A stretch of DNA of 64,000 nt. It comes from Physcia stellaris (Eukaryota; Ascomycota; Lecanoromycetes; Caliciales; Physciaceae). The DNA lies in assembly GCA_018902385.1 (NCBI GenBank), contig JABSSW010000020.1, positions 124,001 through 188,000 on the forward strand, in the 5' to 3' direction. This document shows, piece by piece, positions 29,599 through 56,314 of the stretch (its first letter is position 1; every line of letters starts with the position of its first letter). The notes under the pieces are model-generated. The model worked only from the letters and a program-made list of their open reading frames with translations. It ran no database searches and was not told where the DNA came from. Made by a program: the position numbers and the translations under genes.

Positions 29599-30818
29599 AC
29601 GTAAATCGTCTGCACTTACTCTACAGCGCAACCCTGAGCTCAATCCTGAATCGCGTTGCGCAATCTTGTTCAATACAGCCCTAACCCTGAAGTCGTTCGG
29701 AGAAATTTGCCTGCTTGTCACAGAATATCAGTTAAAATAGAGTCAAACTTTGTTTTTCGTGCGCTAAAATTCATATAATCTTAAAATGACAGATTTTGCA
29801 ATCGAATTTCGCAAACTGAATTTCGCAACGTTTAAAAAATAATGAGTTTCGTTCAGTCAAACGTAATTTTACAAACGAAATTTGTTTAGATTTTTGCTGA
29901 ACTAAAACGATTAAAAAACACAATTTATGTTACAAATTCAATTTTTGAAATAATTCAACAACGAAACGTGATATTGATTTGATTAACGCGTCATTCGAAT
30001 CGTCGAATTTTTGCGCATCGATTAATGAACAATTAATAATGATAAAAAAAATAACATAATCGTTGTTAAATTAAACGAACGAAAACGTTCACGAGCAAAA
30101 AACAATATTGTTAAAAAACATCAAAAAATGTCGAAAATTCGTTCGAACAAAAAAAAAGCATCATCAAAAATTATTGAAAATTGATTTACAATCGTCGTGA
30201 CATATTTTGAAAACACGCAATTTGTATTTATTCAAAAAAACATGATGAACGCAATGAATAAAATGATTGTTCAATTCAACAAAAAACACGCGAAAATGAA
30301 AAAAAAACAATGTTTTGATTCGTCATGAAATTACAAAAATAATGATTTTTTTCAAATTTTTTTTTTCACGATCAAAACGAGTTTACGCAATTGAGCAATC
30401 GTCGTTGCGATTTTTTCAACGTTCAAAATTATCGCAAACAAAAACATCGAAATCATAATACGTTTGAACGATAACGAAAAAAAACAACAATTGAATCAAT
30501 ACGAAATCAAACGTATCGTCAATGAAATCAACACGTGCATTACGAAAAAAAAACATACAAATCAAAAATATTCAAACGATCAAAAAATTTTCGAATAATG
30601 ATTTCGCGATACACGCGATAAACGCAAAAAAAACAAAAAAATTGCGAAACAACAATGCATGAACGACGATATTCGATAAAAAAACAAAAACGATCGTTTC
30701 GATTTACGCGATTATGATCAACGAAATAAAAATCAAAAATTCGATTTAACAACGACAAAAAATAGAAAAACGACGATACGTAAAAAAAAAAAAAAAAAAA
30801 AAACGAAAACTTGAAAAA

Positions 30819-31124
30819 TGTAAGACTCAAGGGGTGTGGCACCAGAGATGTATAGCAGAGACGATTGTATGACTAGACTAATAACTGCAGAACTAACTAC
30901 CTTACAGACTTCTGCTTATATAGTCAGTCAATCTGCTCAATCGTACACACATTCCGAAGCATATTCGAAAGTATGAGCTTGTTGAGTTCAACCGAAGACC
31001 TGATGCTGACGTGGCCAGACTGGTCGTCTCCATGGCCTACCCGCTTCGGTGGCCGAACTGCTTGATAGCCTTATCGGGATCCGGCCCGCAGTGCCCTGCT
31101 GGCCTGAACCCTGAGTGCCTTACA
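30819..31124 (-). repeat. Left LTR of element 1 (least mutated copy)
   Basis: 306 bp, TG...CA ends, with normal base composition. It serves as the reference copy for reading the mutation pattern in the other four copies of this LTR in the window (35206, 38913, 49839, 56006). Confidence 0.88.
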
Positions 31125-32260
31125 TGCGCCCCCTCCTTAGCACCGAAGTCCCTTGAGGTGACCTCCTTCCATATGCATTGCAGTAGAGGTCCTGGGCTTG
31201 TGTATCTGTATGCTTTATCCTTGAGGCTTGGAGGACCGCTGTAATCGCGACCTCCGCACCTGGCTTGAAACCCTGGGGCTTGGAGGAGCACTGTGGCCGT
31301 GACCTCCGCACCCGGGTCCATATCATCATTCTCCTCGATTCATAACCAGCCTGCGTTAAAAACCTGAAAACCACCTTCGTGAGTGACTCAGGAAAAGCAT
31401 GGTCTGGTGGCTCCACTGCCTGCTGCTTCCAGGATCGAGAGCCTGATTTCGTACAATCCACAGCCCCCGATCTGGTGACTGACAGCTGACTGAGTGACAG
31501 AAAGACCGAATCCGAGTCCTTCTTTACCTCCTCATCTCCCTACTCCCGAGCCCCCATACAGGAATCGAACGTTACAATGATGCTAGGCGAAATAGGGCCG
31601 AATAACCGCGACCTCCGCAGGTGATATATCGGGCTTTCGAAACCTCCTCGGTCTCCTACTTCTACCTCACCATGATACTCAACGCTCAGTTAGACCGGGC
31701 AGCAGCCTCTGGAGGTGCTTCTGGCACGGTTCAGCCCTCCATGCGCCGTAAGCCCTAGGCCGTAAGCAGCACAGAGTTCGTGGCATGAGGCCGTGATGCT
31801 TGACATGACTGTTCAAGTCAGTTGCTTCGTCAAAGGGATTATACCTATAGAGCGCTGAACGCGTCACGATATCGATGACTGCCCGAGTCAGTTGTATCGT
31901 CAGGAAGACTGCTGAACGCGTCACGATATCGATGACTGCTCGAGTCAGTTGTATCGTCAGGAAGACTGCATCTGCCGTGCTATTGGCTTCCAGGTACGTT
32001 CCTGCTGTATGGCTTTACTTCTTGGCTTTATTTCTTGTCACTGCCGATGTCTTCTGGCTGATGTATGGGGTGATGTATGGGGTTTAGCGAAGCTCTCTTC
32101 CCCCTTTTAGCTTTTTAACTTCCTCAGGAAGCGAGACGACGTCAGGACGACTTATCTTCGGAAGACTTTGGCATCCCTCACGCTCTACTCTCCGATGGAT
32201 CGCTATGAGATTCACGTAAAGTTAGCCCATATCAATTCTCGTTGGATTGAGACGATAGCT
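31125..32260. other. Unmutated patch inside element 1 with tandem repeats
   Basis: Internal part of element 1 next to its left LTR. Its first 80 bases align with the AT-saturated bases following the LTR at 49839, showing common origin. A direct tandem repeat of about 57 bp lies at about 31857-31968, with a more diverged third copy upstream near 31800. No protein domain is recognised in this patch. Confidence 0.5.
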
Positions 32261-32443
32261 TATCGTGTGACTTTGAACGAGATGCTTGCTTGCAGTCTCT
32301 GATCCATGCTCGCATGCCAAGGTCCTGTCAAGATGTCCACAGTGGCTCATATCTCGCAGTTTGCGACCGTGCTTGCATGCTGAACTCGTGCTCGGTGCCC
32401 TGATGGACCACCTCGCTCGCTTGCTTTATTTGGCCAACATATG

Positions 32444-32700
32444 CTCTGAGGTGCTTCTCATCAAAGTGCTCGACCAGGTGCGTTCCACATCGAAGGCTCG
32501 GCCAGAGGTTGAACGGCGTTCTCTTTCAACTTTTCTCGATCTTCAATACTTCTGTATTGACTCTGAGGTGCTTCTCATCAAAATGCTCGACCAGAAGTTG
32601 TCTGTATTGAACGTTTTCTCTATAACTTCATTCGATCTACAATACTTTCGTATTGACTTTGAGGTGCTTCTCATCAGAGTGCTTGACCAGGAATTGTATC
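32444..32700. repeat. Triplicated block inside element 1
   Basis: A motif of about 30 bp (starting CTCTGAGGTGCTTCTCATCA) occurs three times, beginning near 32444, 32561 and 32657. The spacings are 117 and 96 bp, both multiples of three, consistent with a repeat within a former coding region of the element. Confidence 0.6.
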
Positions 32701-35205
32701 ACGCGAATGACGTTTTCTTCTTTTAAGATTTTTTGTTGTCAATGCGAGTGTGATCATATCAAGAATAGCTAATTTTTGTCTCACAACTGCACACGGGACT
32801 TGCGGCAATGAACGAATCGACTCGACAGACTGCCAGCGATTTTATCGTTTTATGTCTACTTTACTTCAGGTTCTTGATATGCTCCTGCTCAGTCACTCAT
32901 TGGTCAGACTCGAGAATTCGCGCACTACCAGTATTACTTTTAGCAATGGACGGATCACTCGACAAGATTGTCAGTGATTTTATCGTCGTATGCAACATCA
33001 TGTTCTTGAATATGCTTTCGTGCAGTCGTCTCATTGATCGACTGAAAAATCGATGCACTATTCAGTATTATTGTCTTCTACTCGTCGGCGACCACGTCTG
33101 ATGCACAATCGAAAGCAGAAACGAGATCACTCGTAAAATTAGTTTCTCGTTGTCAAAAGTCGATCGAATTCTTTATTTCTCTTTGAAGATCACCCGAGCA
33201 CGAAATACTTTTTTCAGTTGAAAACCTTTTGTAGAACATAGTCTTTCTTTATTTTCTTCAGTTGAAAACCTTCTGTAGGACAAAGTTTTCTGATTTGATC
33301 TTTGTATCGTTGCTTGAATCGCATCGAAATGACTTGAAAAATCACTATGATCGTGATTTCCGCATTTGACAGGCTCGAATTGATCGAAACGTTTGCAAAA
33401 ACCGTCGCAAATACGTCAGACTGACGATTGCTTCTGAACTCTCTTTCTCAGTGATTTCATTTTTATCGGATCGTGCTTTCTGAAATTTCGATGATGTTAT
33501 GATCGAACGCTGTTTATGACTTACTGCGTTGTCGAAGTCATATTGCTTTATTCGAAGCGTCAGTTTTCACATTGGCAAATCTAATCGAATCGAACTATTG
33601 CAAAATAGTTGTTTTTGAGAGTGCGCTTCGTCGACGCGATTGACATTTGCTTTGACTTCTACTTATGAAGTCATTGATTTCGCTTTTTTTTATTTTCTTT
33701 CTTGTGAAGCTTTGCTGATCCTTTTAGCATTGAAATCAAAAGGCGAAATCTACTGACTGATCATTGCTTTCTTGATTCTCGATAAGATTGAGTCTATACA
33801 AGCTCACTGCTCAAGATGTGCTTTATGCGAAGTCGTATTTTCGCTATTGAGTATTCGTACGAATACATCAAAGATTTTGTATTGACTATAGATTGTAGAA
33901 TCAGTTGACTCTTCCAATCCGAAATGCTCGAAACGATTTATGATGAAAAGGTTTTGCATTACAGAATGTCAAAATCGAATTTTCGTCGATATATTCACTC
34001 TGATCTTGCTGCATTCAGAGCAATTTCACGAAATCGACTAATTCAGATCAACTCTTAGAAGCTTTCGTTCAGAAAGCGTCTGTGACCGTTCTTGTTCGAA
34101 AACGATACTCGTACGAAGCAGACGTCAATGATTTGAATTGACTGTTGTTCAATGTCGCAGCATCGTGACTAAAAGTCTGAAACGAAACTGCTTGTAATTC
34201 AGCAAAGACATTGATTCGAATTGATCTTTTCATTGCAATTAGTCATGTCAGAACTTTTTGCGACAACGCTTGATGATATTGTCAGCAGGACTCGTCGCGA
34301 AAAATTCATTGCGACTATTGCTCGTTGCTTGATTACTGAAATTTTCACTATGCGATGTGAACTTGATCGAAAATGATCGGATCATTCATTTGTTGTATCG
34401 TCTTCAAATTCAACTTTTGCATTGCTTCAGATGCAGTTCTGTTGTATACATTGACAGTTTTCGCTGCCGAAACGTCGACGATACAGTGTATCTTGACTGA
34501 CTTTCTGTTAGTCTTATCGAACGTGGATTTTTTATCACCTTCGTGACTTGAAACTGTATTGCATTCATATAATTTCTCGTCCTTGTGTTCTTGTTGAGAT
34601 CGTCGTTTGATTTGTTCTCAAGAACGTTCTTGCTCTTCCGACTTCTGAGACTCTGTAGTGAAAGTGAGGCGATCAAAGTCGATGCTCTCGAGTTGTTTCT
34701 AGATGACTCGAATATAGAAGATTCATTTTACATGAAAGCTTCGGCAAGTTGCGCAGATTTTTCCAATCGTCTTAACGTTCTTGACCTGCTGTTACTGTTG
34801 TGAATAATCGAGAGCTTGAAACGTTTGACACTTGTCGCTGAAAACGTCAACGAAATGAAATGCTTTGAAATCACTTGCTGTATAATGTAGACTTCGCATT
34901 GCATCGAGATAATTTGTTCTTGTAGTTTTGCGTTAAAGCTTCTGTCTTGTAACTTTTCAAGCTCGGGCTCGCTCTCTAGACTGAACAATACGTGCTAGCA
35001 GAGCGATACAACCAATCATGATTGCGATACTTAGCTGTATAATTGTAAACTTTGTATTCTCGATCGGCTTTTCGTTTCGACTTTTGTAGAATCGATTTCT
35101 CGTCTCGATCGAGCGTCGAGGACGTAGCACGTTCAGTCATTGAGCTGCTTAATTGTACTTATACACGAGTGATGCTAATCTGATGATTATGATAGTTATT
35201 AGAAT

Positions 35206-35510
35206 GTAAGACTCAAGAGGTGTGGCACCAGAGATGTATAGCAAAAACGATTGTATGACTAGACTAATAACTGCAGAACTAACTATTTTACAGACTTCTG
35301 CTTATATAGTCAGTCAATCTGCTCAATCGTACACACATTTCGAAGCATATTCGAAAGTATGAGCTTGTTGAGTTCAATCGAAGATCTGATGTTGACGTGA
35401 TCAGACTGATCGTCTCCATGATCTATCCGCTTCGATGACCGAACTGCTTGATAATCTTATCGGAATCCGGTCCGCAGTGCCCTGCTGACCTGAATTCTGA
35501 ATGTTTTACA
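35206..35510 (-). repeat. Right LTR of element 1
   Basis: 305 bp. In coding orientation (minus) this is the 5' LTR. Just inside it lies AGTTATTAG (35195-35203), the reverse complement of CTAATAACT within the LTR (35264-35272), a likely self-priming site. Compared with the left LTR it carries about 27 transitions, all at CpC or CpT contexts. Confidence 0.88.
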
Positions 35511-38500
35511 AAAAAATAAAAAAAAAATGAAAATTTTGTACGTGTTTTGAAAAAACAAATTCACGACAATGTAACAATATCATTTTTTGATTATTAAAAT
35601 CATTATTTCAAAAATGAATAACAATATGTTGAACAACAACATCATGATCGAAAAAAAATTGAAAATTTGTTCAATGTTCAACAAAACATGCAAAATTATT
35701 CAATGTTATAAATGTTATTATCACGAACACAATACAATTCAATGCAAAAAAAAAACGATACGATTATTGCGCAAATGCGCATATTACAAAAAAAAATGTA
35801 CAAAAAATTACAAAATCAAATGTTGCGTATGTGAAAAAACACATAATTCATGAAAAAAAAATGCAAAAAAAAAACAAAAAAAAATTGAAAAAATCATGTA
35901 TTAACGTTCGATTACGTCAACGAAATTCGAAATTTAAAAACAACAATACATCGTCGTTAACAAAATGATAACGATTTCGAAATCGATGAATACAATTCAC
36001 GAAAATTCAAAAACGACAATCGTTGCGAAAAAATTCAATCAATTAAAAGAATTACAACGACGAAACATCGAAAAATCACAAAAAAAATTTATTTAAACGA
36101 AATCAACAAACGCAAAAAAACGAACGCGCATGAATTTCACGTAAAAATAATTTTGTCGATCGAAACAATAATATTATCGCAATTATTTTCAAATTCACAA
36201 AAATTTCGAAACAAAAAAAATGATAAATCGACGTTATCGATCAAAAATAAAAAAACATCAATAAAAAAAAAATATGAAAAATTTGAAAAAAAAAAATTTT
36301 TCGTTCACGATTATCAAAACATTTTTATTTGACGTCACGAATCGAAATACGAAATTCAAAACAATGAAAAAATGTTAAAAAACGACATATTATCGATATT
36401 ACAATACAACGTCAACAATTCGAAAATTCAAATCATGATATCGTTGTTCGAAACAAAAAACATAAAAAAATTCGATATATTGATTATACAAAAATCATGA
36501 AAAAATTCATTTCAATTCACGACAAACAACAAATTTTTGCAACAATTCGAATTATTGTACATGTTTAATGCAATCACGAAAATGTGCATGTTCGTCAACA
36601 AAAAAATAACGAAAATCGAATATTTTCACACGTTTCACAATAGAAATTTAATTTCGTTAAAAATGCAAATCGCGAACGACAAAATTATCAACATTTACAA
36701 CATGTATAATTTATACAAAAACAACGAAAATTTTAACGCGATATTCAATTTTAAAAACGCGATGCAAAAAAAAATCAACGAAAAACACGTCGTCGTAAAA
36801 AATTTTAATTTGCATCATTTCAATTGAAAAAAATTATATGTGAAAACAAACGCGAACGTATACGAATTCATAATCATAATGAAAAAATATAAATTGAAAA
36901 AAATTACAACAATCGAATTAATTACATGAAATAAATACACGAACAAAAACACAATCGATTTCACATACGCAATATCGTTGTTTCGAAACAACATAATCGA
37001 AATCGATATCGACGAAAATATGAACAATCATTCGAATTATCGTTCAATTAAAATGATATTTAATTTGCGAACGAAAACGATCGCGTCGAAAATCACAAAA
37101 ATTTGAACGAAAACAAATATCAATATATTACGCGAAAAATTGCAAACGAAAATCACGAATAATGAAATATTTATTTTCAACAACGACATATACAACAATC
37201 AAACAAAAAAAATCGACGATCAAATCAAAAAATTAATAAAAATTATTCAAATAATTATCGAAACAATTATTTCGATCAACAAATCGAATGTTTACGCGAA
37301 ATCAAAATTTATCGAAAAATGCAAACAAACATCGAAAACGATCAAATCGATCAAAAAAAAATATCAAAACAACGACAAAATCGAAAATTTGTGAAAATCG
37401 TACAAAAAAATGAAAAATTGTTTGAATCACGTAATTTTTAAAATTATGAAAACACAATACAGAAAAAAAATCGAAAAAAAATGTAATACATCAAACAACA
37501 TATAAAAAACATGCAAATAAACGAAAAATCGAATTTTTAAAAAAATTTGTTTATCGATTTTACACGATTATTCATTCATGTTGTTCGAAATTGATTCAAT
37601 CAAAAAAACATTCATATTGTTGAAAATTTTTTTTTTTCGTCGTTTACAATTGTTTTAATCGACATACAAAAAATCACATACAATCAAAATTTGAAATTGA
37701 AAAACATACAATTTCACGAAATGACGAAAATTATAATCAAACAAATTTCGAACAAAATTTCAAACGACGACGACATAATCAATAAAATTTAAAAATAAAT
37801 AAATGATATTATTGTATCACATTTGCAACGAATATACAACGTCAATTTGAACGAAAATTATTGTTCGAAATATTTTCGAAAATCGATCACGATTGCATTA
37901 CGTAAATCAAACAAAAATATTTATTCGATGACGATTTCGTACAAATCAATAATTTTATTCAATATTATAAACAAATTCATGAAATTTATATTGATTAAAC
38001 GAATCAAATTTTTGACGAAAAAATACGATTTGTTGTCACGCACACATTTCGAAATCAAAAAAATCGTGTTTACGAAATACGCATTACATTACATGATAAA
38101 ACGAATACATTCGACATGAAACAAAAAATTGATAATCGTGATTATGTTTTTCGACGTGATGAACGTTTTCGACAATATAACGCGTTTAAAATTGTTACAC
38201 AATTTTAAAATGAAACATTTAAACAAAAAATTGATACGATATATTAATTTTTTTTTGTTCAATAAAATGACGATATTGAAAACGAACGAATACGATATCG
38301 AATAATTCGAAATATTCATAAAAATTTTACAAAATTCATTTATGTTATCGATTTTTTTTTACAACGCATTTCTATTGAAATTTTTGAAAAAAAAAATATT
38401 TCAACGAACGAATTCATCGACGATGTAAAAATGTTAACGAAAAATCACATTTTCGAAAAATGCAACGATATTATAATTAAAACACACGAAAAAATTTGCG

Positions 38501-38912
38501 TATCGTGAACATTGAAACATGAAATGAAATTTGCATTTTTAAAATATCAATTCATTTATTTCAATCGAAAAAAAAAACAAACGTCATCGAATCGATATTA
38601 TTTTTTGAATTCAATCAAAAAATCAAAACAAACAAAAAAATAAAATATTTGAACGTCATAATGAACGAAAAATTCAATTGAAAAACATTAATTAATCAAA
38701 ACAAAACGAAAACATTGAAATCAATAAAAACATTACGCAATTTTGACGACATTACATGAAATGTTAAATTTTCGAAAATGAAACAAATGATGCAAACGAT
38801 TTTCGTTTTACAATTTATATACGTATGTTCGATGTGATACACGTCGACGAAAAAAAAATCACAATAAAAAAATAACGAAAAAATTAACAAACGTTCAATA
38901 TCAAATCGAAAA

Positions 38913-39221
38913 TGTAAAATTCAAAAAATGTGACATCAAAAATGTATAACAGAAACGATTGTATAATTAAATTAATAATTGCAAAATTAATTATTTTACA
39001 AATTTTTGTTTATATAATCAATCAATTTGTTCAATCGTACACACATTTCGAAATTTATTCGAAAATATGAATTTGTTGAATTCAATCGAAAATTTGATAT
39101 TGACGTGATCAAATTGATCGTTTTCATAATTTATCGAATTTCGATGATCGAATTGTTTGATATAATTTTATCGAAATTCGATTCACAATATTTTATTGAT
39201 TTGAATTTTGAATATTTTATA
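38913..39221 (-). repeat. Outer left LTR of the composite element
   Basis: 309 bp copy of the element 1 LTR family, strongly mutated. It is followed by the same internal sequence as the LTR at 49839, until element 4 interrupts it at 39425. Confidence 0.8.
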
Positions 39222-39424
39222 TGCGTTTTCTTTTTAACATCGAATTTTTTAAAATGATCAACATTTTTCGACATGTTTCGCAATAAAAATTCGTTAAATT
39301 TGTGTAAATATGTTTTTTTTTTGAAATTTGAAAAATCGTTGTAATCGCGATTTTCGCATTTGAAATCGTTGAATTGAAAAATCATTGTTATCGTGATTTT
39401 CGCATTTGAATATTTTTATTTCGA

Positions 39425-39640
39425 TGTGACGAACGTGCATCGAATTCAACATTTGAAAAATTAACATCGATTTAACATCGTTATTTTATCACATCGAATG
39501 TTAAAATCGAAATTCGTTTTGACGCATTCGAAAAATCAAATTTTTTACATATGTTTATACAAATTTCATGTATTTGCTTTTCATTTCGATATTTTCGTGT
39601 AATTATGTAATAATATTATATTTTTGCATAATATTTCACA
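39425..39640 (+). repeat. Left (5') LTR of element 4
   Basis: 216 bp, TG...CA ends, preceded by TTCGA. Confidence 0.85.
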
Positions 39641-42600
39641 TTATATCGAAATCATTTTTTTTTCATGTTCGTTCATGATACGCGAACATTTAAATAAACA
39701 ACATTTTTTACAATTAAATTCAATGAACGAATAGAAACATAATAGATTCAATTTAATTTTGATCATTCAACGAAAAAAACAACGAAACATAATAGATTCG
39801 TTGTAAATTTAAAAAAACGAAACATAATAAATTCGTTTGTTTTGTTTTAAAAAACGTTCAAAACAGACGAATTCACGCGATAATTTCGATTTACAATACA
39901 ATAATTTTTTTTTTATCATTTTTGACGAAACATTCGTGTTTGAAAATCAAAAAATTATTAAATAAAAAAAAACATCAACAAACAAACATTTTTATTCAAT
40001 ATTCATTTGTTTCATTATAAACAAACATTTAGAAATTTCATTCAACATCACATCGAATTTGTCATTTTAAATGAAATTCAATCATCAAAATTTATTTAAA
40101 TCATTGTTTTGTTCATTTTTTCTTTTTTGTTTCAACAATTATTCGATTTCAATTCACAATCATGATTTTTTTTCAATTTTTTTTTTCGAAATCAATTTGA
40201 AAAATCGATTATTATTTAACGAAATCACACAATTGAACGTGTATGTTTTTGATCGAATAATCACAAATTTCGAACAACATATTATCGACATTTTTTTTGT
40301 CATAAATTTTAGTCAAAATGACGATGAATTTGATGAAAATAAATCGTTCAAAATCGTTAATTCGATAAACATTTTTTCGAAACAACAATTTCAATCAATG
40401 ATCATCAATTATCTCGACGAATTACGAGTTATTTTCGAAATTTTTCGACGAGATCGAGATCGAAAAATGATCGTCATTCGAATTTGAAATTTTCAAATAA
40501 AAAACATAAAAATCAAAATTTCGAATCATAATAAAAAAAAATATAAAATCAACGAGATTTTGCGTGTCGTCAAAATCGAAATTTTTGTTGTTCAAATTCA
40601 ATGTAATAAATTTTTCAAAATTCAACGAATTCGTGAAAATAAAAATAAACAACGAAAAAAAACTGTTAAATTATCAAAATTTGAAAAATTTTTTAATTTC
40701 GAAAAAAAATTTCGTTTTGAATTTAAAAAACGCTCGTTCAAACAATTTGATTTCTTTATTAAAAAATTTCGTTTTGATTTTAAAACGCGCTCGTTCAAAC
40801 ATTTTTATTTTTTTATTTTTTTTGAACATAAAAATTTCAATACGTTCGAATACATTCGTTATAATATTTGAAAAAATAAATGCATTGATAAATTGAAAAT
40901 CAATTTCGATTAATACGTCGATAAATTCAAAAAATTTTTTGCAATTATTGATTGAACAAAAAAAAAATTGCGAAATATATCGATATTCGACGCGAAATTA
41001 AATGCAATTTTTTCGAATCAATTGATCAAATTTTCAAATTTTTGAACGACATTTATATCGATGTTGATTATTTTCGAAACGTTCGTCGTCAATACGATAA
41101 TTTGAAAATGAAATTCATTGAAATTTTCAACGAATTTTATTTCGAATTTTTTTTTAATCAATCAATTGTTCAAAAAAAAATGAAAAAAACAAAATTCATA
41201 ATTTCGAAAAAAAAAATCACAACGAAATTTCAATATGTCGACGTTGTTTTGAACGATTATGAAATTTTTGACGATTATTTTCGCAAATTTCAAATTATGA
41301 ATAACAAACATCGTCGCATTAAAAACAACGATATTAAAATCAATATTTTTTTCATTAAAAACAAATTATCGATCAATCAATTAAATTTTCGAATTCGTCG
41401 CAATGAACAATATATAAAAAATTTAAAAATTAAATATACGATTTTTTTAAAAAAAAACGTATAAAATTGTCATTGTTCGTTTTAATCTGTTTAAATTGAA
41501 AAAAAAATGTCGAAAATGTGATGAAAAAAATCATTGATGAAAAAAATACATTTTTGACAAATCATTTGATAATTGAATCGACAATTTAATTAAACAAAAA
41601 ATGTTTAATTTGCAAATCATTTTTTTGATTAACGATAATTTTTCAAACATCGACGACGATAATATAAATTTCGATGTTTCAATCACATTCGACGTTGAAT
41701 CGAAAAATTAACAATTTTTTTCGAAAACGCGAAAAAAATTATCAAAATTTGTTCACGAAATTTTCAACATAACATCTTTAACGAATTTCATTGTAAATTT
41801 TTAATTAAAAAAATAAATTTTTTTTCAAATGATAAAAAAATCATGATTTATAATTTAATTGATATCGATGTTTTTGAATACGTTTTCATTAATGAAAAAA
41901 TTGCGCAAAAAATATGTCATAAATTAAAATTAATTTCAATTTTTTTATCGCGATTCAAAAAAATTTTTAATTTCGAAAAAACAAAAATTAAATTTATTAT
42001 TCATCAAATATTGTTCAAAATGACGATACAAAATCATTCGAAATTTTTCGTTTTTTTGTTTATTATCAAAATAAAACAGCATTCGTTGATTTTAAAAAAA
42101 TTTTGAATAAACAAACATGAAATGATTTTCAATATAATCAACGACGAATATTATTTTATTTCGAATCATTGTGATCACGTTGAAATTTTCTTTTTGTTTT
42201 TACGTTCGTTTATATTTCAAAAATTATTTAATTCGAACAAGCAATCGAATAAAACGTTATATTTGTTATTTTTTGAACGATTTTTAACGTCGTTTTCGTC
42301 GACAAACGTTCAAAAATATCAAATATTGCAAAAACGATCAATCTCGACATTTTTTCGAGTAATTTTTTTTCGTTTTATTGTGAAAAACTCGAAAAAAAAC
42401 GAACAATCAATAAAAAAATTTTTGATTTCAAATTTCAAATATGTCATTGAAAAAATAAACAAAAATTATTTTTCAAATAAATTTTTCAAAAAAAAACGAA
42501 AATTGAAAATCATACGCGAAATTCAAAAATCGATTTTGATCAACGTATCAATAAAAAAATTCGACATAATCAAAAAATTTACGCGTCGATTTAATCGACG

Positions 42601-45600
42601 ATTCAAAATTACAATTTTCGAAATAAAAAATGACGAACAAAATTTCGATTTCGATATATCGTTGAATGTCGTTTTTATTGACGCGACGATTTTTCAATTG
42701 TTGATCGAATTTAAAAAAAAAAAAATCAAAACATTTTCATTGATCATGAAAAAACTGAACGAAATTATTGACAACGTCAAAAAAAAATTAACAAAATAAA
42801 AATTGATTCTGATTTGAATTTCAAGAAAATTTTTAAAATCATGAAAACAATCGTCGAAAAATTAAAACGTAAAATTTTTGAATTTTTTAAACGATTCGAA
42901 AATGTATTCAATTCGAAAAAATTGACAAATTATTTTTTCATAAATTTTTCGATCACAAAATCGAATTGACGAAAAATTCGAATCAATTGTTTCGAAATCG
43001 AATTTATTTCTTATCGTCTAAAAAATTCGAAATTTTTCAAAAATATTTACACGATAATTTTCAAAAAAATTTATCAAATCAAACAAAACGTTTTATGTTT
43101 TATTCATTTTATTCGTCGTCAAATCAAACGAACAATTTCGTTTGTGTGTCGATTATCGAAAATTAAACGTTATAATCAAACGTAATAACTATTTTATTTC
43201 GTTAATTGAAAAGATTTTCGTTAAAATTATCGATTGTAAATTTTTGTTCAAATTAAATATTATATCGATTTTCAATAAATTTCGAATGAATTCACAAAGC
43301 GAAAATTTTATTATTTTTATATGTTCGTTAAACATTTACAAATATCATATGTTGTTTTTTGATTTTATCAATGATTCAATCAATTGATAATATTACATGA
43401 ATAATTTGCTGTTTGAATACATTAATCATTTTTGTCAAATGTATTTGAATGACATTATCATTTATAATAAAATTCGAAAACAACATGAACGACATTTCAT
43501 TCAAATTTTTCAAAAATTGAAAAAAATTGATTTTCAAATCGATATCAAAAAATGCGAATTTTTTCAAACAGAAATTTCATTTTTAAAAATCATATTATCG
43601 ACAAAAAATTTACGCATAAATTTCAAAAAAATACAAAACATCGTCAATTGAATTCGTTCAACATGTATTAAAAAAATTCAAACGTTTGTGAATTTTTGCA
43701 ATTTTTATCGACGTTTCATTAAAACGTTTTCGAAATTCGTCAAATTTTTAATTCGAATAATTAAAAAAAAATTGATTTCGAATGAATTAATTTCGTTAAC
43801 GAGACATTCGAAATTTTGAAAAAACAAATAATCGAAATTTTAATTTTTCGACATTACGATCGCAATCGTAAAATTATTTTGAAAATCGATTTTTCAAATT
43901 AATATTTAAATGAAATTTTATTTCAATACGACGACGACGAAATTTTTCATTCAATGATTTTTTTCAACAAAAAGATGATTTTTGTCGAATGCAATTACGA
44001 AATATATAACAAAAAATTTTTGATTATTATTCGATGTTTAAAACATTGAAAATTCGAATTCGAAAATATTAACGAGTCAATCGAAATTTATATCGATTAC
44101 AAAAATTTGAACATTTTTATGACAAACAAAAAATTCATTTTTCGTCAAATACGTTGAATCGAAATTTTAACGAATTACAACATCAAAATTCAATATTAAT
44201 TCGAAATCAAAAACGTCAAAACGAATGTTTTGATTAAAATGTTTGAATTTCGTTTCGTCGAAAACGACGAACGTGAATTTTATAAAAAACAAATTTTGTT
44301 GTCATTTTTTCGATTGCAATTATGTTCGATTGATGTTTAAAACGATTTATACGAACGCGTCATGCAAATCAATCAAAAAAACGAAAATTGTATTAATTAT
44401 CGTCAAATTTTGATCGACGAACAAATCATCAACGAAAAAATAAATTTGCAAAATTGTTTCGATCGAAACGAAATTTTTTTTAAAAACGAAAATTTATGAA
44501 TGTCAAATCAATTAAATTTAATGATTGAAATAATTCGTGACGTTCACGATCAATTTTTTTGTGCACATTCGAACATGAATTGTATTGAAAAATTCATTAA
44601 ACGTTATTATTATTGATTTAATATGAAATTATTCATCAAACGTTATATTCGTAATTGTCACAAATGTCAACGATCGAAATTTTCACATGATGATCGTCAC
44701 GAATTGTTAATTTTATTGTCGATTTCTAATTAACGATGAATTGATATATCGATGAATTTCATAATTGAATTGTTTGATTTCAAAAACAATAATGTCATTT
44801 GTATTATTATCGATCGTTTAATCAAAAAACGTCATTACGTTTTTTGCGTGATTGATGACGATAATTTAGCAATTCAAATTTGTGTCAAAATATTGTTTCA
44901 TTATATGTTTCGTATTCATGAATTATTATCATTCATTATTTCAAATCGAGATGATCAATTCGTAAATCGCGTTTGAAATTTTTTTTGTAAACGATTAAAA
45001 ATCAAATGTAAATTGTTCATTGTTTTTCAATTTGAAACAAACGATCAAATCGAACGAACAAATCAAAATATCGAAATTCGATTGCGTTTGTATTGCAATT
45101 ATCGTCAAAACGATTGAATTGATTGAATAAATATCATGAAATTCGTTGACAATAACGATGTTTCAACGATCATCGAATTCATTTCGTTTTTCATTAATAA
45201 AAATTATCATTTTCGAATGATTTTTGAATCGAATTTAGATGATTACGAAATCATTAAAAAACGTTTGTTGATTAAACAAGACGAATTCATTGTCGAAAAA
45301 ATGAATCGTATCATCGAATACGTCAAAATCAATGTTGTCGACGCGAAACAGAAAATAATTGTTCGAATCAACAAATTTCGTTTGTTTATAAATTTTGAAA
45401 TAGAAAATTATTTTTGATTAAATCGTCGTTATATAAAAACGATTCGTTCATCAAACAAACTCGATGACAAAAAATTGAATTCATACAAAATAATCAAAAA
45501 AAAATCTCGTTTATGAATTGAAATTGCTCGACGACATGCATATTCATTCAATTTTTCATTTCTGATTGTTGAAAAAAAATTTTAAAAATTCGTTGAAAGA

Positions 45601-45614
45601 ACAACATAACGATC

Positions 45615-45797
45615 TGTAAGATGTCATGCAATGATATGAATAAACAACAGGATTCTAGACTGCAGAACTAACTATGGGGCCTGGCAGGGCATATGTAGGT
45701 GGTTTGGTCATAGCCGGGATCCGGGCCAGGATCCCGGTGTGATAAGATAAGGGTCCAAACACCTACCAGGGTCCCAACACATAGTATGCTCGTCACA
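45615..45797 (-). repeat. Left (3') LTR of the Gag-only element
   Basis: 183 bp. The stop codon of the Gag-like ORF lies directly against its inner edge (45798-45800). Confidence 0.88.
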
Positions 45798-47396
45798 TTA
45801 CCCCCCGTTCCCTCCCAGCTTCGCCCCGAAGCGACTAACCATTCCTCCCACTCCTCTCATCGGCCGGCGGTTCGAGGGGTATCGTTGGCTAGGGCGTGGG
45901 TAGTTGAACAGGCCATTGCGAAAGCTGGAATGACCGAAGCAGGTGCAACAAACGTGATCTGGAGTCAGAGATCGAAAGAACGGCGGAGATGGAGGCGGAG
46001 ACGTAGGCGCAGGCCGAGGCCATGCGAATGAGGACCTTGACTGCAGAAATGAGGACCTTGGCTGCAGCGAGGTGTAGGAGATGCCTGCCATTTTGTATGG
46101 CGAATAGGCCGATTCCTCTGGCAGAGCAGAAGCAGGGCGGATCGGTTCCGCAGGCGTATGCTGCTGAAAACTCTTCGGATTCGGGCTTTTCAGGCCCTGA
46201 CTAATCGGTGCCTTCTGATTGGCTGCAGGCAGGAAGTAGGCGGTGATTCGTGACTGATAGGGAGAGCGTGGTTGACTAGGTGAACGAGTGCCGAAACGCT
46301 GCGGAGAAGCAGAGTATTTTCGGTGCGAATGTAGGCCAAATGGCCTAGGCTTTCCATGAAACATGCGGATCAGGTCATCGATAGTGAGATAAGGTTTCTG
46401 GGTGTGAGGTTCTTGGTGTTTTCGTACAGGTGTTCGAGGAGGTGAAGCCGTAGGTGTAAGTGAATTGGCTGGTAGTTTCTCCATCGATTTCGGTGTGATA
46501 TTGAGTGTCGCAATAGGGAGATGTGAACACTCTGGTGATATCGATGCAGGGCAGGATATCGGTTTTGGTGTTGCAGGGGGGGTAGGCGGAGCAGGCGGAG
46601 GAGGCGGGCAAATGACTGCTGGCTTCTCCTCGGTTTTGTACGTAGACTCTGGTGTAGGGGGTCGGAGATTCGAGTTCTTTGATGTGGCGGGCGGAGCGGC
46701 AGGCTTCTGAGCATGATGCTCGCGTATGTGATCGTGGAGCTTGTTCTTGGAGTTGAAGCTTTGCTCGCATTGCTTGCAGACGGCCCTGGAGCAAGCGTTC
46801 TCTTGCTTGGTATGCTCCAGAAGTCGACTTAATGAGGAGAATTGGGCGGAGCATTCGACGCACGAGTGATACTGAGGCGGAGGATTTGAGGTAGGGGTAG
46901 GTGATTTCGATGTAGGTTCGAGCGAAGTAGTAGGAAATGCACAGGCCAGGCCTCTGCCGAAGTCTTGTATGGTGGTGAAGGTCTGATCTTTGAACCATGC
47001 GAAAGCAGGGCCCCGAACGCATTTGGGCAATAGGTCGAGCACATCTGACTCCCGATATTGGTGTTGGATTTGCTGAAGGTGTTGCAGGAATCCCAACACC
47101 TTGCTGTATAGGCCAAACTCCTCAATATCACGCATTAATGTTGGATCAAAGATACCAATATTGACGGGAGTTGGTGTTGGTTTTGCGGCTTCAATGGCCT
47201 CAATTTCTGCCAGCTTTGCAGCTTCCTGCTCGGCCAATTCGGCTTCCTTTTGCCATTTTTGGCTGGCCAACTCGGCTTCTTGAATGTATTGTGCAATTCG
47301 ATGCCGAATAGCTCCAGGACACTTGGTTGATCGTTGATAATGCTGACGAATTGTAAGCGTTTCCGGAAGCTCACTGTCACAGTATTGACAATGCAT
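45798..47396 (-). CDS. Gag-like protein with C2H2-type fingers (retroelement ORF)
   Basis: Retroelement ORF of 532 residues from ATG 47396; the frame upstream has only non-ATG starts. An N-terminal CQYCDSELPE finger is followed by a coiled coil rich in Ala, Glu and Gln (about residues 45-75), then a segment typical of fungal Gag-like proteins (LLPKCVRGPAFAWFKDQ), then two further fingers (CVECSAQFSSLSRLLEH and CKQCEQSFNSKNKLHDHIREHH). The second half is proline- and serine-rich. The last codons (LGGNGG) are written by the purine-rich tract beside the LTR. The ORF is whole in this window. Related ORFs are common in Pezizomycotina and are often annotated only as C2H2 proteins. The role, packaging of element RNA, is inferred. 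Confidence 0.8.
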   Translation of the reverse strand: MHCQYCDSELPETLTIRQHYQRSTKCPGAIRHRIAQYIQEAELASQKWQKEAELAEQEAAKLAEIEAIEAAKPTPTPVNIGIFDPTLMRDIEEFGLYSKVLGFLQHLQQIQHQYRESDVLDLLPKCVRGPAFAWFKDQTFTTIQDFGRGLACAFPTTSLEPTSKSPTPTSNPPPQYHSCVECSAQFSSLSRLLEHTKQENACSRAVCKQCEQSFNSKNKLHDHIREHHAQKPAAPPATSKNSNLRPPTPESTYKTEEKPAVICPPPPPAPPTPPATPKPISCPASISPECSHLPIATLNITPKSMEKLPANSLTPTASPPRTPVRKHQEPHTQKPYLTIDDLIRMFHGKPRPFGLHSHRKYSASPQRFGTRSPSQPRSPYQSRITAYFLPAANQKAPISQGLKSPNPKSFQQHTPAEPIRPASALPEESAYSPYKMAGISYTSLQPRSSFLQSRSSFAWPRPAPTSPPPSPPFFRSLTPDHVCCTCFGHSSFRNGLFNYPRPSQRYPSNRRPMRGVGGMVSRFGAKLGGNGG

Positions 47397-47761
47397 CGTG
47401 AAAACAGAGGAGGATAATCGATTCGCTAGGTAATTGGGTAGGATTCTGAAGGATTCTCGAACAGGGAGGATGGCCAATACCGAAGAGACTGTGACAGGGT
47501 TTCTGGTACAGCCGTTCTTCGATGATGTAATGTATTGAAGTGAGGTCTTATTTAGAACTCGCGTACCTCGACGAGGGTGTAGGATAATGAGTAGATAGGG
47601 CCGAAGATAGGTGTACGGAGTGAGGTGGTGAGATTCGTTGGTGGCTCAGATACCGAGGCCTGGTCGACGAGCTTCAATGCTCAATCCGGTGCCTTACTTG
47701 CGGCTATGGTGGAGCATGTACGAAGACATACCCCGGTTGGGTTTGTAAGAGTCTAGAATAA

Positions 47762-47945
47762 TGTAAGGTGCCATGCAATGATATGGGTAAACAACAGGAT
47801 TCTAGACTGCAGAACTAACTACGGGGGCCTGGCAGGGCATATGTAGGTGGTTTGGTCATAGCCGGGATCCGGGCCAGGATCCCGGTGTGATAAGATAAGG
47901 GTCCAAACACCTACCAGGGTCCCAACACATAGTACGCTCGTCACA
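47762..47945 (-). repeat. Right (5') LTR of the Gag-only element
   Basis: 184 bp. Two bases inside it lies AGTCTAGAAT (47750-47759), the exact reverse complement of ATTCTAGACT within the LTR (47799-47808), at the same relative place as in element 1. Confidence 0.88.
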
Positions 47946-49124
47946 CGATCTTTCAAAATCAATCATTGCAAATGAAATGTTTGAATGAAAATTCGATAAT
48001 ATATTAAAATTTCGATATCATTATTATCGATTACAATATTGTTGCAATTGATTCGAATGAAAATTTCACGATCGAACATAATATTACGTCGACGACGACG
48101 AATTTCACAATGTTCAAAACATCGTGAATGTTTTTCACGATATTAATTCAAAAACAACAAAATTTGTTTTACGAAATGATTAAATCATGAATTTTATTGT
48201 TTATGATCGATCAAAAAATTGTCATCGAATTCGTTACAATTTATTTTTCAATTGATTTCATTAATTTTTTTTTGTCATTCGTTTCGTTATCATTTCGCGT
48301 TGTTTACAGTCAAAATTTACGTCGCATGAAAAATTGAATCGTGTCAAAAACATTTTCAAAAATTGTCGTCAAATTTTATTGAACAATGAATGATAATGAG
48401 AAATGTCATGCAATGAAATGAATGAACGCAAATTGTCAAAAAAATTCGAATATTTACGAATTTGTCAACAAAATTTTCAATTGTTTACTAATGACACGCG
48501 AAATTATTTGTAAAATTCGTTCAAAATATTTGTTTTTCAAAAAATTTAATACATGCATATTTCGTTGAATGCAATGTACGAATCAAACGTCGTATATGCG
48601 ATAACATCAACGCGTTAATCGTGATAATAAAAATTTTATCGATTTGTTCAAATTGTTCGTTTCGTGATATCAATTTGATGTTGCAAAAATTTTTGAATTT
48701 GTTGATACGCATTGTCGAATTTTTAATTGTTTGTTTATTAATGTTCGTCGAAATTATTTTTGACGAATTATATGAATCGATCATTTTTCAAAACATTCAT
48801 TACATTCACGTTTTGTCGCATGCAATGTACACATCGATTTTCGCATACACGAAAATATCATTGCGTTAAACATCGTTATCACGATTTCATTAACACGTTC
48901 AAATTGTTCATTTCAAAATGTAATCACATGAATGTTTTCATTTTGACGAATCAATTTCGTTAACGAAATTCATTTCGCGACGTTTCGCGTTTTTTTTTTG
49001 TTTCGACGATCAATCATTCAACATCATTCAATAACACATACACATCGCGCAAGACGTTCATCAATGAAAAAAACAAAAATCAATTAATCGTTTCGAAACG
49101 AAATTGAAAAAAAACGAAAAATAA
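47946..49124 (+). other. 3' internal part of element 4
   Basis: Sequence continuing element 4 after the nested insertion. AT-saturated; no domain is recognised. Two related blocks of about 200 bp (about 48.53-48.65 and 48.77-48.9 kb) look like diverged direct repeats. Confidence 0.4.
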
Positions 49125-49340
49125 TGTGACGAACGTGCATCGAATTCAACATTTGAAAAATTAATATCGATTTAATATCGTTATTTTATCACATCGAATG
49201 TTAAAATCGAAATTCGTTTTGACGCATTCGAAAAATCAAATTTTTTACATATGTTTTTGCAAATTTCATGTATTTGCTTTTCATTTCGATATTTTCGTGT
49301 AATTATGTAATAGTATTATATTTTTGCATAGCATTTCACA
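49125..49340 (+). repeat. Right (3') LTR of element 4
   Basis: 216 bp, same ends as the left copy, followed by TTCGA. Confidence 0.85.
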
Positions 49341-49838
49341 TTCGATTTCTAATTAATTTGCGTTAAAAATTTGAAAATACATTTTTTGATTTTTGAAAAA
49401 AAAATGATTTGATAATTTTATTATTTGTTGTTTTCAAAATCGAAAATTTGATTTCGTACAATTCACAATTTTCGATTTGATGATTGACAATTAATTAATT
49501 GACAATGAATTTTGAATTCGAATCATTTTTTTTTGTTTTTTTTTTGTATATCGAATTCATGAAAAATTTAAACGCGAAAAACGTCGTTGTCGCGATCGCA
49601 TTCGATATATCAAATTTCGAAAATTTTTTTGATTTTTTTTTTCATTTCACATTTTATTCGTCGTTCAATCAAATCGAACAACAATTTTTGAAAATATTTT
49701 TGACACGATTCAATTTTTCGTGCGTCGTAAATTTTAAACAATAAATAATATTGAATTACGTGTAAAAATTAAATTTTTTTGTCAACGATTTCATCGTGAA
49801 AATTACATTTATTTGACGTCGAACGCGTCGACGATTAA

Positions 49839-50147
49839 TATAAAATTCAAAAAATGTGACATCAAAAATGTATAACAAAAACGATTGTATAACTAAATTA
49901 ATAATTGCAAAATTAATTATTTTACAAATTTTTGTTTATATAGTCAGTCAATTTGTTCAATCGTACACACATTTCGAAATTTATTCGACAATATGAATTT
50001 GTTGAATTCAATCGAAAATTTGATATTGACGTGATCAAATTGATCGTTTTCATAATTTATCGAATTTCGATGATCGAATTGTTTGATATAATTTTATCGA
50101 AATTCGATTCGCAATGTTTTATTGATTTGAATTTTGAATGTTTTACA
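49839..50147 (-). repeat. Middle LTR of the composite element
   Basis: 309 bp copy of the element 1 LTR family. It has no matching duplication at its own left flank, which fits recombination rather than an independent insertion. Confidence 0.78.
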
Positions 50148-53100
50148 TGCGTTTTTTTTAACATCGAAATTTTTTGAAATAATCAACATTTTTCGACATG
50201 TTTCGCAATAAAAATTCGTTAAATTTGTGTAAATATGTTTATTTTTTGAAATTTGAAAAATCGTTGTAATCGCGATTTTCGCATTTAAAATCGTTGAATT
50301 GAAAAATCATTGTTATCGTGATTTTCGCATTTGAATATTTTTTATTTCGATTTTTAATCAATTTGCGTTAAAAATTTGAAAATACATTTTCTTGAATAAT
50401 TCAAAAAAAGCATGATTTGATGATTTCATTATTTGTTGTTTTCAAAATCGAAAATTTAATTTCGTACAATTCACAATTTTCGATTTGATGATTGACAATT
50501 AATTGATTGACAATGAATTTTGAATTCGAATCATTTTTTTTTTCGTATATCGAATTCATGAAAAATTTAAACGCGAAAAACGTCGTTGTCGCGATCGCAT
50601 TCGATATATCAAATTTCGAAAATTTTTTTGATTTTTTTTTTCATTTCACATTTTATTCGTCGTTCAATCAAATCGAACAACAATATCTGAAAATATTTTT
50701 GACACGATTTAATTTTTCATGCGTCGTAAATTTTAAACAATAAATAGCATTGAATTACGTGTGAAAATTAAACTTTTTTGTCAACGATTTTATCGTGAAA
50801 ATTATATTTATTTGACGTCGAACGCGTCGACGATTGATAATTTTGTTGACATTATTTTTTTTCGAATTATTCATGTGAAATTTTCGAAACATATTTTTTA
50901 AATGTTTAATTATTGCAATTGACTTTCAAATACGTTTTTCGTAATTTTTTCATTGAATCAAATAATAAAATTTTGATTCACTGTATGATTTATTCGAAAT
51001 TTGATTTTTTTATAAATTTTGCTGTTCAAAATGATTTCAATTCAAAATTTTTCGTTCGTGAATTTTTCGTCATTTTCGATATTCGACTGATACGTGAATT
51101 TTAACGAAACTTTTTTTTTAAATTTGATTTTTTTCAACAACGAAACGTGAAAAACGTCATGAATTCGTCAACGTTTGAATATTTCGAATTGATATGTTTG
51201 AATTTTTTATTGTTTTGAATATTTTGAATGAATCGAAAAATTTTCATTCGAATTTCTTGTTGCGTTTGATGCGAATGTTTTTGTCATTGACGTTGACGTA
51301 ATTTTTTACGTCGAAATTTTTTATTTTTGTTTTTGCATTTTTGTATTTGATTTGTTGTTTTTGTGTTTGTGTTAAATTGATTTTTAATATTTTTATCAAT
51401 TCGATTAGTTTTTCGACATGCTTTTTTGCAAATTTTGATTTAATTTTGAAATTTGCAAATTTTTCGAATGACATTTTCGAAATATATTTTTGCATTGTTT
51501 CAAAAAACGATATTTGCGTGAACGCATGTTTATTATTGTTGTAAACAAATTTAATCATCGACAATAATTTTATTCAATTATTCTGTTGAAAATTGACAAA
51601 AATTTTGAAATATTGTTTCATGATTGAATTTTGACGTTTCGTCTGATCATTTGTTTGCGAATGATAAATCGTGAATAATTTAAATTTGATTTTTAAAACA
51701 TAACATAAAACGTCGTGATATTTCGAAATAAAAATCGATTTTTTGTTTGTTGTTATCGATGAAAAAAAATCATGAAATTTAATGATTTTTCGAATCAATA
51801 TTTCGACGAGATTTTTTGCGATCATTGTTTTTTTGATCGAAATATAATATGTCATTTTCGTTAAACGATTTACGACAACGAATATTGAATTATACGTTGT
51901 TTCGTTTCATGTTTTGTTTTCAAATAAATCTGTTACGAAATTCATAATAATGTCAATTTATTTGAATTTCGATATAGAAAAAAAACGATAATTTTTCATA
52001 TGATTTGTGACGAAATATCTTGTTTCTTTTGCAAATTGCACATGTTTCGCAATATTTTTTTATTTGTGTTCGCATGTTTGAATTATGTTGAAATTTTTTT
52101 TTTTTTCGTTCGATTAATAATATTTTCGTCGTATTAATTTCAAAATGCGTGTTACATCGAAATGATTTGCGAAAAAATTGTTATGATTTGATTTTATGAC
52201 GTTTTTTTTCAAATTCGATGACACGTACAAACAATTTTCATGTCATAATATTTCGTTTTCGTTTTTTCAAAACGAATGTGATTTTTCAAAAATAATTAAT
52301 TTTTGTTTCATTTGAATCGCACAAAGATTTTTTTTTAACAACGAACGAATCAATTCGACAAAAATGTCAATGATTTTATCGTCGTATGTCGCATTATATT
52401 CATGAATATGTTTTCGCGCAATCATTTCGTCGATCGATTCGAAAATCGTTACATTATTCAATATTAATGTTTTTCACTCGTCGATAATTACGTTTGATGT
52501 ATTTGAAACGTTAAGAAAATCATTCGAAAAATTATTTTTTTCATTTTTTTCAAGAAATTCGCACGCGAATATTTCATTTTCATTGAATTCGAATTTCGTA
52601 ATTTTAATTTCGTTCACATAAGTCGAAAATTCGTTCGAATTTGTTTGTAAAAATTGTCGCAAACGCGTCAAAATTTGACGATTGTTTTCAATTTCATTTT
52701 TTGTGATCGTCATGTGATCAAATCGTTTTAACAAATCGTTCGCAAAATTCTTGTTGTCGAAACGATAATCGATGACAAAATTGTAACGTGATAATTTTTG
52801 TGTTCATCGTATTTGTCGAAATGATAATTTCGTTGTAATCATGAAACGATTGAGATTTTGATGATTCGTTAAAACGAAAATTTGATGTTTCGTTTTTTTC
52901 AAATAATGACGTCAATGTTTGAATGCGAAAATTATGATCAAAAATTTTTTGTCGTGAATTTCATAATTAAATTTCGCGAATATCATTTTTTTTGAAAAAT
53001 AAATTATCGAATGTCAATGATTTTTGTCGTTTGATTGACAAAATATTTTTTTTATTGTTTTATTCGAAACGTCGATTTTCACACGAATAAATTTAGTCGA

Positions 53101-56005: not shown

Positions 56006-56314
56006 TGTAAAATTCAAGAAATGTGACATCAAAAATGTATAACAAAAACGATTGTATGACTAAATTAATAATTGCAAAATTAATTATTTTACAAATTTTT
56101 GTTTATATAATCAATCAATTTGTTCAATCGTACACATATTTCGAAATCTATTCGAAAGTATGAATTTGTTAAATTCAATCGAAAATTTGATGTTGACGTG
56201 ATCAAACTGATCGTTTTCATAATTTATCGAATTTCGATGATCGAATTGTTTGATATAATTTTATCGAAATTCGATTCGCAATGTTTTATTGATTTGAATT
56301 TTGAATGTTTTACA
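56006..56314 (-). repeat. Outer right LTR of the composite element
   Basis: 309 bp. In coding orientation it is the 5' LTR. The self-complementary pair (AATTATTAA just inside, TTAATAATT within the LTR) is still recognisable after mutation of both arms. Confidence 0.8.

Follow-up and report, generated by a model that had tools for sequence, protein, structure and literature searches.

The DNA analyzed here is a 64-kb stretch (the window; contig C20, 124001-188000) from the genome of Physcia stellaris, a lichen-forming fungus of the family Physciaceae, represented by 44 Mb in 147 contigs. It contains a block of repeats depleted of cytosines followed by C or T (CpC and CpT), and within the block a young element flanked by long terminal repeats (LTRs). 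A first-pass annotation had proposed that the hypermutation is not classical repeat-induced point mutation (RIP) but the work of a mutator with a different context preference. The genome paper describes a hybrid Nanopore and Illumina assembly of 46.57 Mb, with a GC content of 43.3%, from an ascospore-derived culture (PMC7513301). A term search of that paper gave no matches to 'repeat-induced' or 'AT-rich', and the three matches to 'rip' belong to 'fungal-RiPP' (PMC7513301).

The repeat block and its LTRs

The features of the block are listed in Table 1. Its edges are sharp and lie near 29,750 and 57,800. On the left, CC plus GG falls from 18 per 250 bp (bin 29501) to 0 (bin 29751), and on the right it rises from 0 (bin 57501) through 3 (bin 57751) to 25 (bin 58001); the host flanks are of normal composition and unmutated. 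The two saturated stretches, together 19.5 kb, contain not a single CC or GG and only 151 CT plus AG, beside 2245 CA plus TG and 1103 CG.

Table 1. Features of the hypermutated block, in window coordinates.
Feature	Position	Strand	Remarks
Repeat block hypermutated at CpC/CpT; two insertions nested in it are less mutated or clean	29750..57800		CC+GG profile
Youngest LTR element, inserted into DNA saturated beforehand	30819..35510	+	CC+GG profile
5' LTR	30819..31124	+	C-bearing at all 27 differences
3' LTR	35205..35510	+	27 C-to-T or G-to-A changes: 20 CpC, 7 CpT
Saturated stretch 1	35800..45600		GC 0.229, CC 0, GG 0
Saturated LTR copy	38913..39212	+	remaining CC+GG 0, CT+AG 1
Unmutated insertion within saturated block	45600..48000		edges approximate; direct repeats 45676-45797 and 47824-47945, 99% identical
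Saturated stretch 2	48000..57700		GC 0.243, CC 0, GG 0
Saturated LTR copy	49839..50140	+	remaining CC+GG 0, CT+AG 3
Saturated LTR copy	56006..56310	+	remaining CC+GG 0, CT+AG 5

The two LTRs of the young element differ by 27 transitions and no transversions, and at every one of the 27 positions the 5' LTR carries C or G and the 3' LTR T or A. Per available site, 20/34 CpC and 7/48 CpT were changed, compared with 0/45 CpA and 0/26 CpG (hypergeometric p = 4.4e-9 for all 27 changes falling on CpC or CpT), and CpC was preferred over CpT (p = 4e-5). Both strands were affected, with 15 changes on the plus and 12 on the minus strand. The numbers estimated by eye in the first-pass annotation (about 27 transitions, roughly 20 at CpC, seven at CpT and none at CpA or CpG) thus agree with the exact counts. 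The 1-bp length change reported with them was a boundary effect, which vanishes when the T at 35205 is included and both LTRs become 306 bp long and align without gaps.

Three older LTR copies in the block extend the series. Relative to the 5' LTR, the copy at 38913 has lost 32/34 CpC and 46/48 CpT, but only 6/45 CpA and 2/26 CpG, and the changes in the copies at 49839 and 56006 resemble these. In all three, CpC is gone entirely and CpT nearly so, and most CpA and CpG are kept, as the annotation had described for CpC, CpT and CpA; the alignment of the LTR copies with tabulated 3' neighbours, which it had proposed as a check, gives the same dominance of CpC and CpT and low values for CpA and CpG.

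The order of conversion can be read within the young element itself. CC plus GG per 250 bp is 41-46 at 31001-31750, 18-27 at 31751-32500 and at most 10 from 32501 to the end, where CT plus AG still amounts to 22-36 per bin. The 3' part has thus lost CpC while keeping CpT, and therefore represents a CpC-first stage that precedes the loss of CpT. A copy on contig C22 is on both sides in the same two-step state (CC+GG about 0-6, CT+AG about 16-30). The flanks of the young element are A-rich, which is compatible with a 5-bp target duplication, but they are of low complexity. Clean, intermediate and finished stages are thus displayed at a single locus.

Three reading frames of the left flank were assigned by Pfam to host genes, namely a MYND finger protein (14330-14899), an ARF-family GTPase (18680-19486) and a protein kinase (27637-28575). 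Among ten reading frames of the window, Pfam gave one protein kinase and two matches below the cut-off in the frame at 45801-47645; the remaining frames of the ten, AT-rich ones included, had no match, and neither did the 64-kb window in Rfam and tRNA scans. The long open frames on both strands of 35800-57700 are probably spurious, because TAG has been nearly removed along with ApG and TpA is depleted.

Target contexts in other repeats, ribosomal DNA and a genome sample

Of 66 alignments, 49 passed the criteria of no fewer than 150 columns and at least 90% purine/pyrimidine identity. Eighteen loci outside the window, whose alignments start in the first 1000 bases and cover at least 300 columns, were pooled. 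Changes were found at 1197/1378 CpC, 909/1576 CpT, 139/1428 CpA and 64/948 CpG. Whatever the 5' base, the changed fraction was 0.83-0.91 for NCC, 0.55-0.62 for NCT, 0.05-0.13 for CpA and 0.06-0.08 for CpG. The target is thus set by the 3' base, and the 5' base barely matters. The rate at CpC exceeds that at CpT about 2- to 6-fold (5.6 for the LTR pair, 1.8-3.3 for the other comparisons).

These rules bear on the type of enzyme. Cytidine deaminases of the APOBEC/AID kind, acting on transposon DNA or complementary DNA (cDNA), are known to edit retroelements at CpC and would in this respect produce such a pattern. Enzymes of this kind read the 5' base and edit one cDNA strand, and here the 5' neighbour is nearly neutral and the changes are spread over both strands (15 to 12); ribosomal DNA (rDNA) was hit as well (see below). 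Editing by such a deaminase, judged here by the mutation pattern and not by a search of the genome for deaminase families, is therefore very unlikely. An APOBEC-type enzyme reads the -1 base, and the reading of the 3' (+1) base would fit better with an enzyme of the C5-methyltransferase type.

The annotation had drawn its context preference from one LTR family, and it proved to hold in unrelated DNA. The 5.8S match on contig C41 (45899-46052) sits in a mutated rDNA unit, which was compared with Rfam consensus sequences, a reference external both to the genome and to the transposons. Where the site and its 3' neighbour are highly conserved, 25/28 CpC and 17/33 CpT were changed, and 0/27 CpA and 0/28 CpG (p = 4e-17 for CpC/CpT against CpA/CpG). 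When conservation was demanded of the site only, the counts were 32/39, 22/43, 3/51 and 2/45, respectively. The test comprised ten alignment blocks and left out the poorly conserved blocks 454-635 of the large subunit (LSU), the early blocks of the small subunit (SSU) and the SSU 3' end. The CpC/CpT signature runs through the whole rDNA stretch, from the 3' SSU over the 5.8S to the 5' LSU. Hypermutated rDNA copies of this kind could mislead barcoding by the internal transcribed spacer. With 0/26 CpG changed in the LTR pair and 0/28 in the rDNA, CpG deamination and CpG-type (Masc2-like) targeting were rejected.

A second transposon family is represented in the window by the unmutated insertion at 45.8-47.6 kb. 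Its direct repeats are 122 bp each, and related sequences occur at 20 or more other places in the genome, the best other copy being 85% identical. Six other copies, chosen by us from the related places, were compared. Three of them (L048, L049 and L050) are mutated, with 107/178, 127/165 and 168/180 CpC and 48/173, 73/163 and 138/176 CpT changed, respectively. CpA (7/178, 12/164 and 14/179) and CpG (14/150, 14/153 and 11/155) showed no matching rise. The other three (L047, L051 and L052) are unmutated or hardly mutated. Over all six copies, CpA changes were 84/1105 forward and 42/1083 in reverse, and CpG changes 76/948 and 71/952. The CpA difference is equally large in unmutated copies (18/178 against 5/169 in L051) and therefore does not track the mutator. 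As the insertion is clean inside saturated DNA and three of the six other copies are unmutated, the family must have been active after the block was saturated.

The composition of the genome was sampled in 200 one-kb bins, obtained from contigs C1-C20 by taking 10 kb at an identical position in each. GC was below 0.36 in 17 bins on three contigs. In all 17, CC and CT were below expectation and the observed/expected ratio of CpA was at least 1.05; that of CC was at most 0.13 in 15 bins and 0.38 and 0.73 in the other two, and that of CT at most 0.65. An ordinary CpA signature, which the annotation had named as an observation that would speak against it, was seen neither in the six copies of the second family nor in these 17 bins. 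Judging from the GC content of 43.3%, the affected share of the genome may be about one fifth; the bins give 8.5%, and the fraction is uncertain.

When all CpC and CpT dinucleotides of the host flank (28 kb) were converted in a simulation, GC came to 0.236 and the observed/expected ratios to 3.67 for CpG and 0.33 for TpA, close to the observed blocks (GC 0.229-0.243, CpG 3.88-4.33, TpA 0.44-0.45). Simulated CpA conversion gave a TpA ratio of 1.74 and a CpA ratio of 0, the opposite of the data. Classical CpA-directed RIP could point to the RID-type and DIM-2-type genes described below and to a weak CpA excess in the most mutated copies. Against it stand this simulation, the absence of any CpA change in the LTR pair and at the highly conserved rDNA sites, and TpA/ApT ratios of 0.46 and 0.45 in the two saturated stretches. 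It is refuted for the loci examined, and as a general account we regard it as next to impossible. What the loci sampled display is a context preference, an order of conversion, action on both strands and a graded series of copies, in two transposon families and an rDNA copy, with gene flanks spared.

Coding frames and RIP indices

According to the codon table, editing of CpC and CpT creates a stop only from TGG (to TGA), and editing of CpA creates stops from CAA, CAG and TGG. Frames in such DNA therefore stay mostly open, and since loss of CpC removes the CCN and GGN codons they will be devoid of proline and glycine. Gene predictors may thus report long false proteins lacking both residues. 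A frame of 170 amino acids (40952-41461) and its nine matches in a protein collection ('ena' source) indeed contain neither, which suggests that the same signature is shared by other lichens. As a proxy the amino-acid composition is weak, because full loss of CpC allows no tryptophan unless TGA is read as tryptophan, and two of the nine matches keep it (5 and 2 residues); the query being itself devoid of proline and glycine weakens the proxy further for other lichens.

The nine related proteins also bear on the possibility that the pattern is technical and arose in assembly or base calling, for instance where methylated cytosines were misread in Nanopore data. Nanopore reads were used in the assembly, together with Illumina reads in a hybrid approach (PMC7513301). 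The proteins come from other sequencing projects, and one family is present in the genome as mutated, half-mutated and clean copies, all of which makes such an artefact highly improbable.

The indices commonly used to detect RIP respond in the wrong direction. In the two saturated stretches, TpA/ApT is as given above and (CpA+TpG)/(ApC+GpT) is 1.37 and 1.40, and the usual thresholds for RIP are at least 0.89 and at most 1.03, respectively (PMC2621366, PMC10998396; the second formula is given in variant letters in both). Both standard indices thus score the saturated DNA as negative. The saturated stretches have composite index values of -0.90 and -0.95, below those of the host flanks (-0.51 and -0.63). 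An index in common use can therefore rank the most heavily mutated DNA of a genome below its genes, and RIP surveys that rely on such indices could miss lineages with a CpC/CpT signature. The CpC index of RIPCAL, (CpC+GpG)/(TpC+GpA) (PMC2621366), would detect it.

Candidate enzymes and comparison with known systems

A search of the genome with the PF00145 profile identified three genes, two RID-type and one DIM-2-type. The third of these, on contig C3, reads as DIM-2-type by its motifs. RID-A (C6:791557-792528) was spliced by us to 513 amino acids; its best full-length match is a Heterodermia protein (72%), and another match of 399 amino acids reaches 96%. RID-B (C5:498500-502000, about 934 amino acids) lies in a region matching P. 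stellaris G7Y79_00005g016670 at 100%. Pfam confirmed that RID-B and the RID-A relative from Heterodermia have the methylase domain. In a tree of the three Physcia sequences and 45 of the 238 listed methyltransferase homologues, a set without a Neurospora RID, RID-A clusters at a support of 0.93 with proteins of the DmtA type from Aspergillus, Histoplasma and related fungi, and also sits with a Heterodermia protein; RID-B falls among Lecanoromycete homologues (support 0.92). The genome thus holds two divergent RID-type genes, and RID-A could possibly have arisen by transfer or be an old paralogue.

We consider it probable that P. stellaris has, or recently had, a RIP-like, repeat-directed mutation system that targets CpY (C followed by a pyrimidine). 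Such a system would act on both strands of repeats and convert CpC ahead of CpT, at which it is slower, until no CpC is left, hitting CpA weakly at most and leaving CpG near background. RID-A, RID-B or the DIM-2-type enzyme would methylate or deaminate the target cytosines, its target-recognition region presumably accepting a 3' pyrimidine. Targets would be found by their repetition, and the system may act in the sexual cycle as in Neurospora. The first-pass view of a mutator with its own context preference is supported, the preference recurring in a second transposon family, in the rDNA and in the AT-rich bins of the sample. Given the RID-type and DIM-2-type genes of this genome, 'not classical RIP' most likely stands for RIP whose target has changed, and not for an unrelated system.

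The DIM-2-type gene is also what a passive origin would draw on, in which 5-methylcytosine at CpC and CpT in repeat heterochromatin decays by slow spontaneous deamination with no active mutator. The end product would be the same, graded copies exist, and Neurospora DIM-2 reportedly favours CpT (PMC13297926). On the other hand, 20/34 CpC changed in the LTR pair, where neither transversions nor changes at CpA or CpG occur, is a large excess over ordinary mutation, and in Zymoseptoria, for which methylation and mutation were both determined, the mutations did not track the context with the highest methylation (PMC8016269). Neither point is decisive, and together they leave passive decay unlikely.

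Several observations weigh against the proposed CpY-directed system. CpA is not untouched: in the saturated window copies (four rows), 39/226 CpA (17%) were changed compared with 5/201 in the reverse direction, beside 9/140 CpG (reverse 4/141) and 218/229 CpC, and the CpA count of the 18 outside loci likewise exceeds its reverse (69/1381). Changes at positions 142, 216, 280, 53 and 187 recur in two or three copies, and part of the excess may therefore reflect shared history rather than independent events. At face value, CpA in these window rows is hit more than tenfold less than CpC. CpA is thus a weak minor target in the most mutated copies and not an absolute non-target, so that the sparing of CpA stands for the LTR pair and fails as an absolute; the substantial share of CpA changes that would have told against the annotation was not seen, although the share is not zero. 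In addition, three of the six second-family copies are unmutated or nearly so, and the system must therefore be incomplete, slow or now weak. The young element, too, carries its mutations in the 3' part alone, even though the 5' part likewise exists in many genomic copies. Finally, the role of the enzyme, like repeat detection and premeiotic timing, is a deduction.

Limited homology was considered as the cause of the half-mutated young element and rejected: with many other copies of the 5' part (the best 82% identical), a lack of homologues fails to explain its escape. An element on contig C22 (C22:297725-304700) is mutated in its 5' part only, though the spared part has copies elsewhere.

Somewhat less firmly, and only a little better than evenly supported in our judgement, we propose a RIP-type defence with nearly inverted targets (CpC over CpT, with CpA and CpG largely spared), executed by a RID-family or DIM-2-type enzyme, possibly RID-A as a second RID copy shared with Heterodermia. 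It would erase proline and glycine codons, create stops only from TGG and be invisible to the two standard indices. If so, some fungi called RIP-negative may run a CpC/CpT-type defence. With not one CC or GG across 19.5 kb, Physcia provides a natural specificity variant of high contrast, which bears on why RIP prefers CpA and on the region of RID or DIM-2 that determines the target.

Searches of the open PMC literature, with the survey of Clutterbuck (2011) and most subscription journals outside their scope, gave no case of CpC-led, CpA-sparing hypermutation. Several features of RIP in the broad sense are present, namely C:G to T:A transitions on both strands, repeats as the DNA hit (at the loci sampled) and a RID/Masc1-type gene, whose role here is conjectural; those of classical RIP, CpA preference and TpA enrichment, are absent, apart from the weak CpA excess of the most mutated copies. 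The process works like RIP without its CpA preference and is a variant of RIP-type repeat mutation, without precedent in the literature searched.

Among published signatures, those involving CpT come closest. In M. oryzae and B. cinerea T4, CpT predominates and CpA comes second (PMC4352252), A. anomala RIP affects CpA and CpT (PMC10998396), and one survey names CpT as the dominant form (PMC7882544). In S. nodorum, short rDNA repeats show CpT without CpA, and the depletion of CpC and GpG in repeats is accompanied by that of CpA, TpG and CpG; in Neurospora Tad1, CpT is above CpA (PMC2621366). Double mutations of CpC to TpT beside CpA are described in Monilinia. Magnaporthe, Botrytis, Sclerotinia, Anisogramma and Stagonospora share the frequent CpT-to-TpT change with Physcia; in the accounts available to us CpC never leads there and CpA is usually also a target, whereas Physcia is CpC-led. 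CpG-targeted, Masc2-like repeat mutation in Basidiomycota and Tuber (PMC4352252) is likewise a context-specific C-to-T change in transposons, but Physcia spares CpG (observed/expected about 4). RIP in Cladonia rangiformis is similar in its sharp AT-rich blocks, its nested younger elements of higher GC and its RID and DIM-2 homologues, and differs in a GC peak near 16%, compared with 23-24% in Physcia (PMC12542154). It was defined there by GC content, and a term search of the main text gave no match to CpA, CpT, CpC or 'dinucleotide' (PMC12542154). With RIP of Neurospora crassa, Physcia shares C-to-T mutation of both strands in repeats, spared single-copy flanks, RID/DIM-2-type genes, AT-rich blocks and a mutated rDNA copy. 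Neurospora-type RIP prefers CpA (PMC12543289), whereas in Physcia CpC is preferred over CpT, CpA is weak at most and TpA is depleted.

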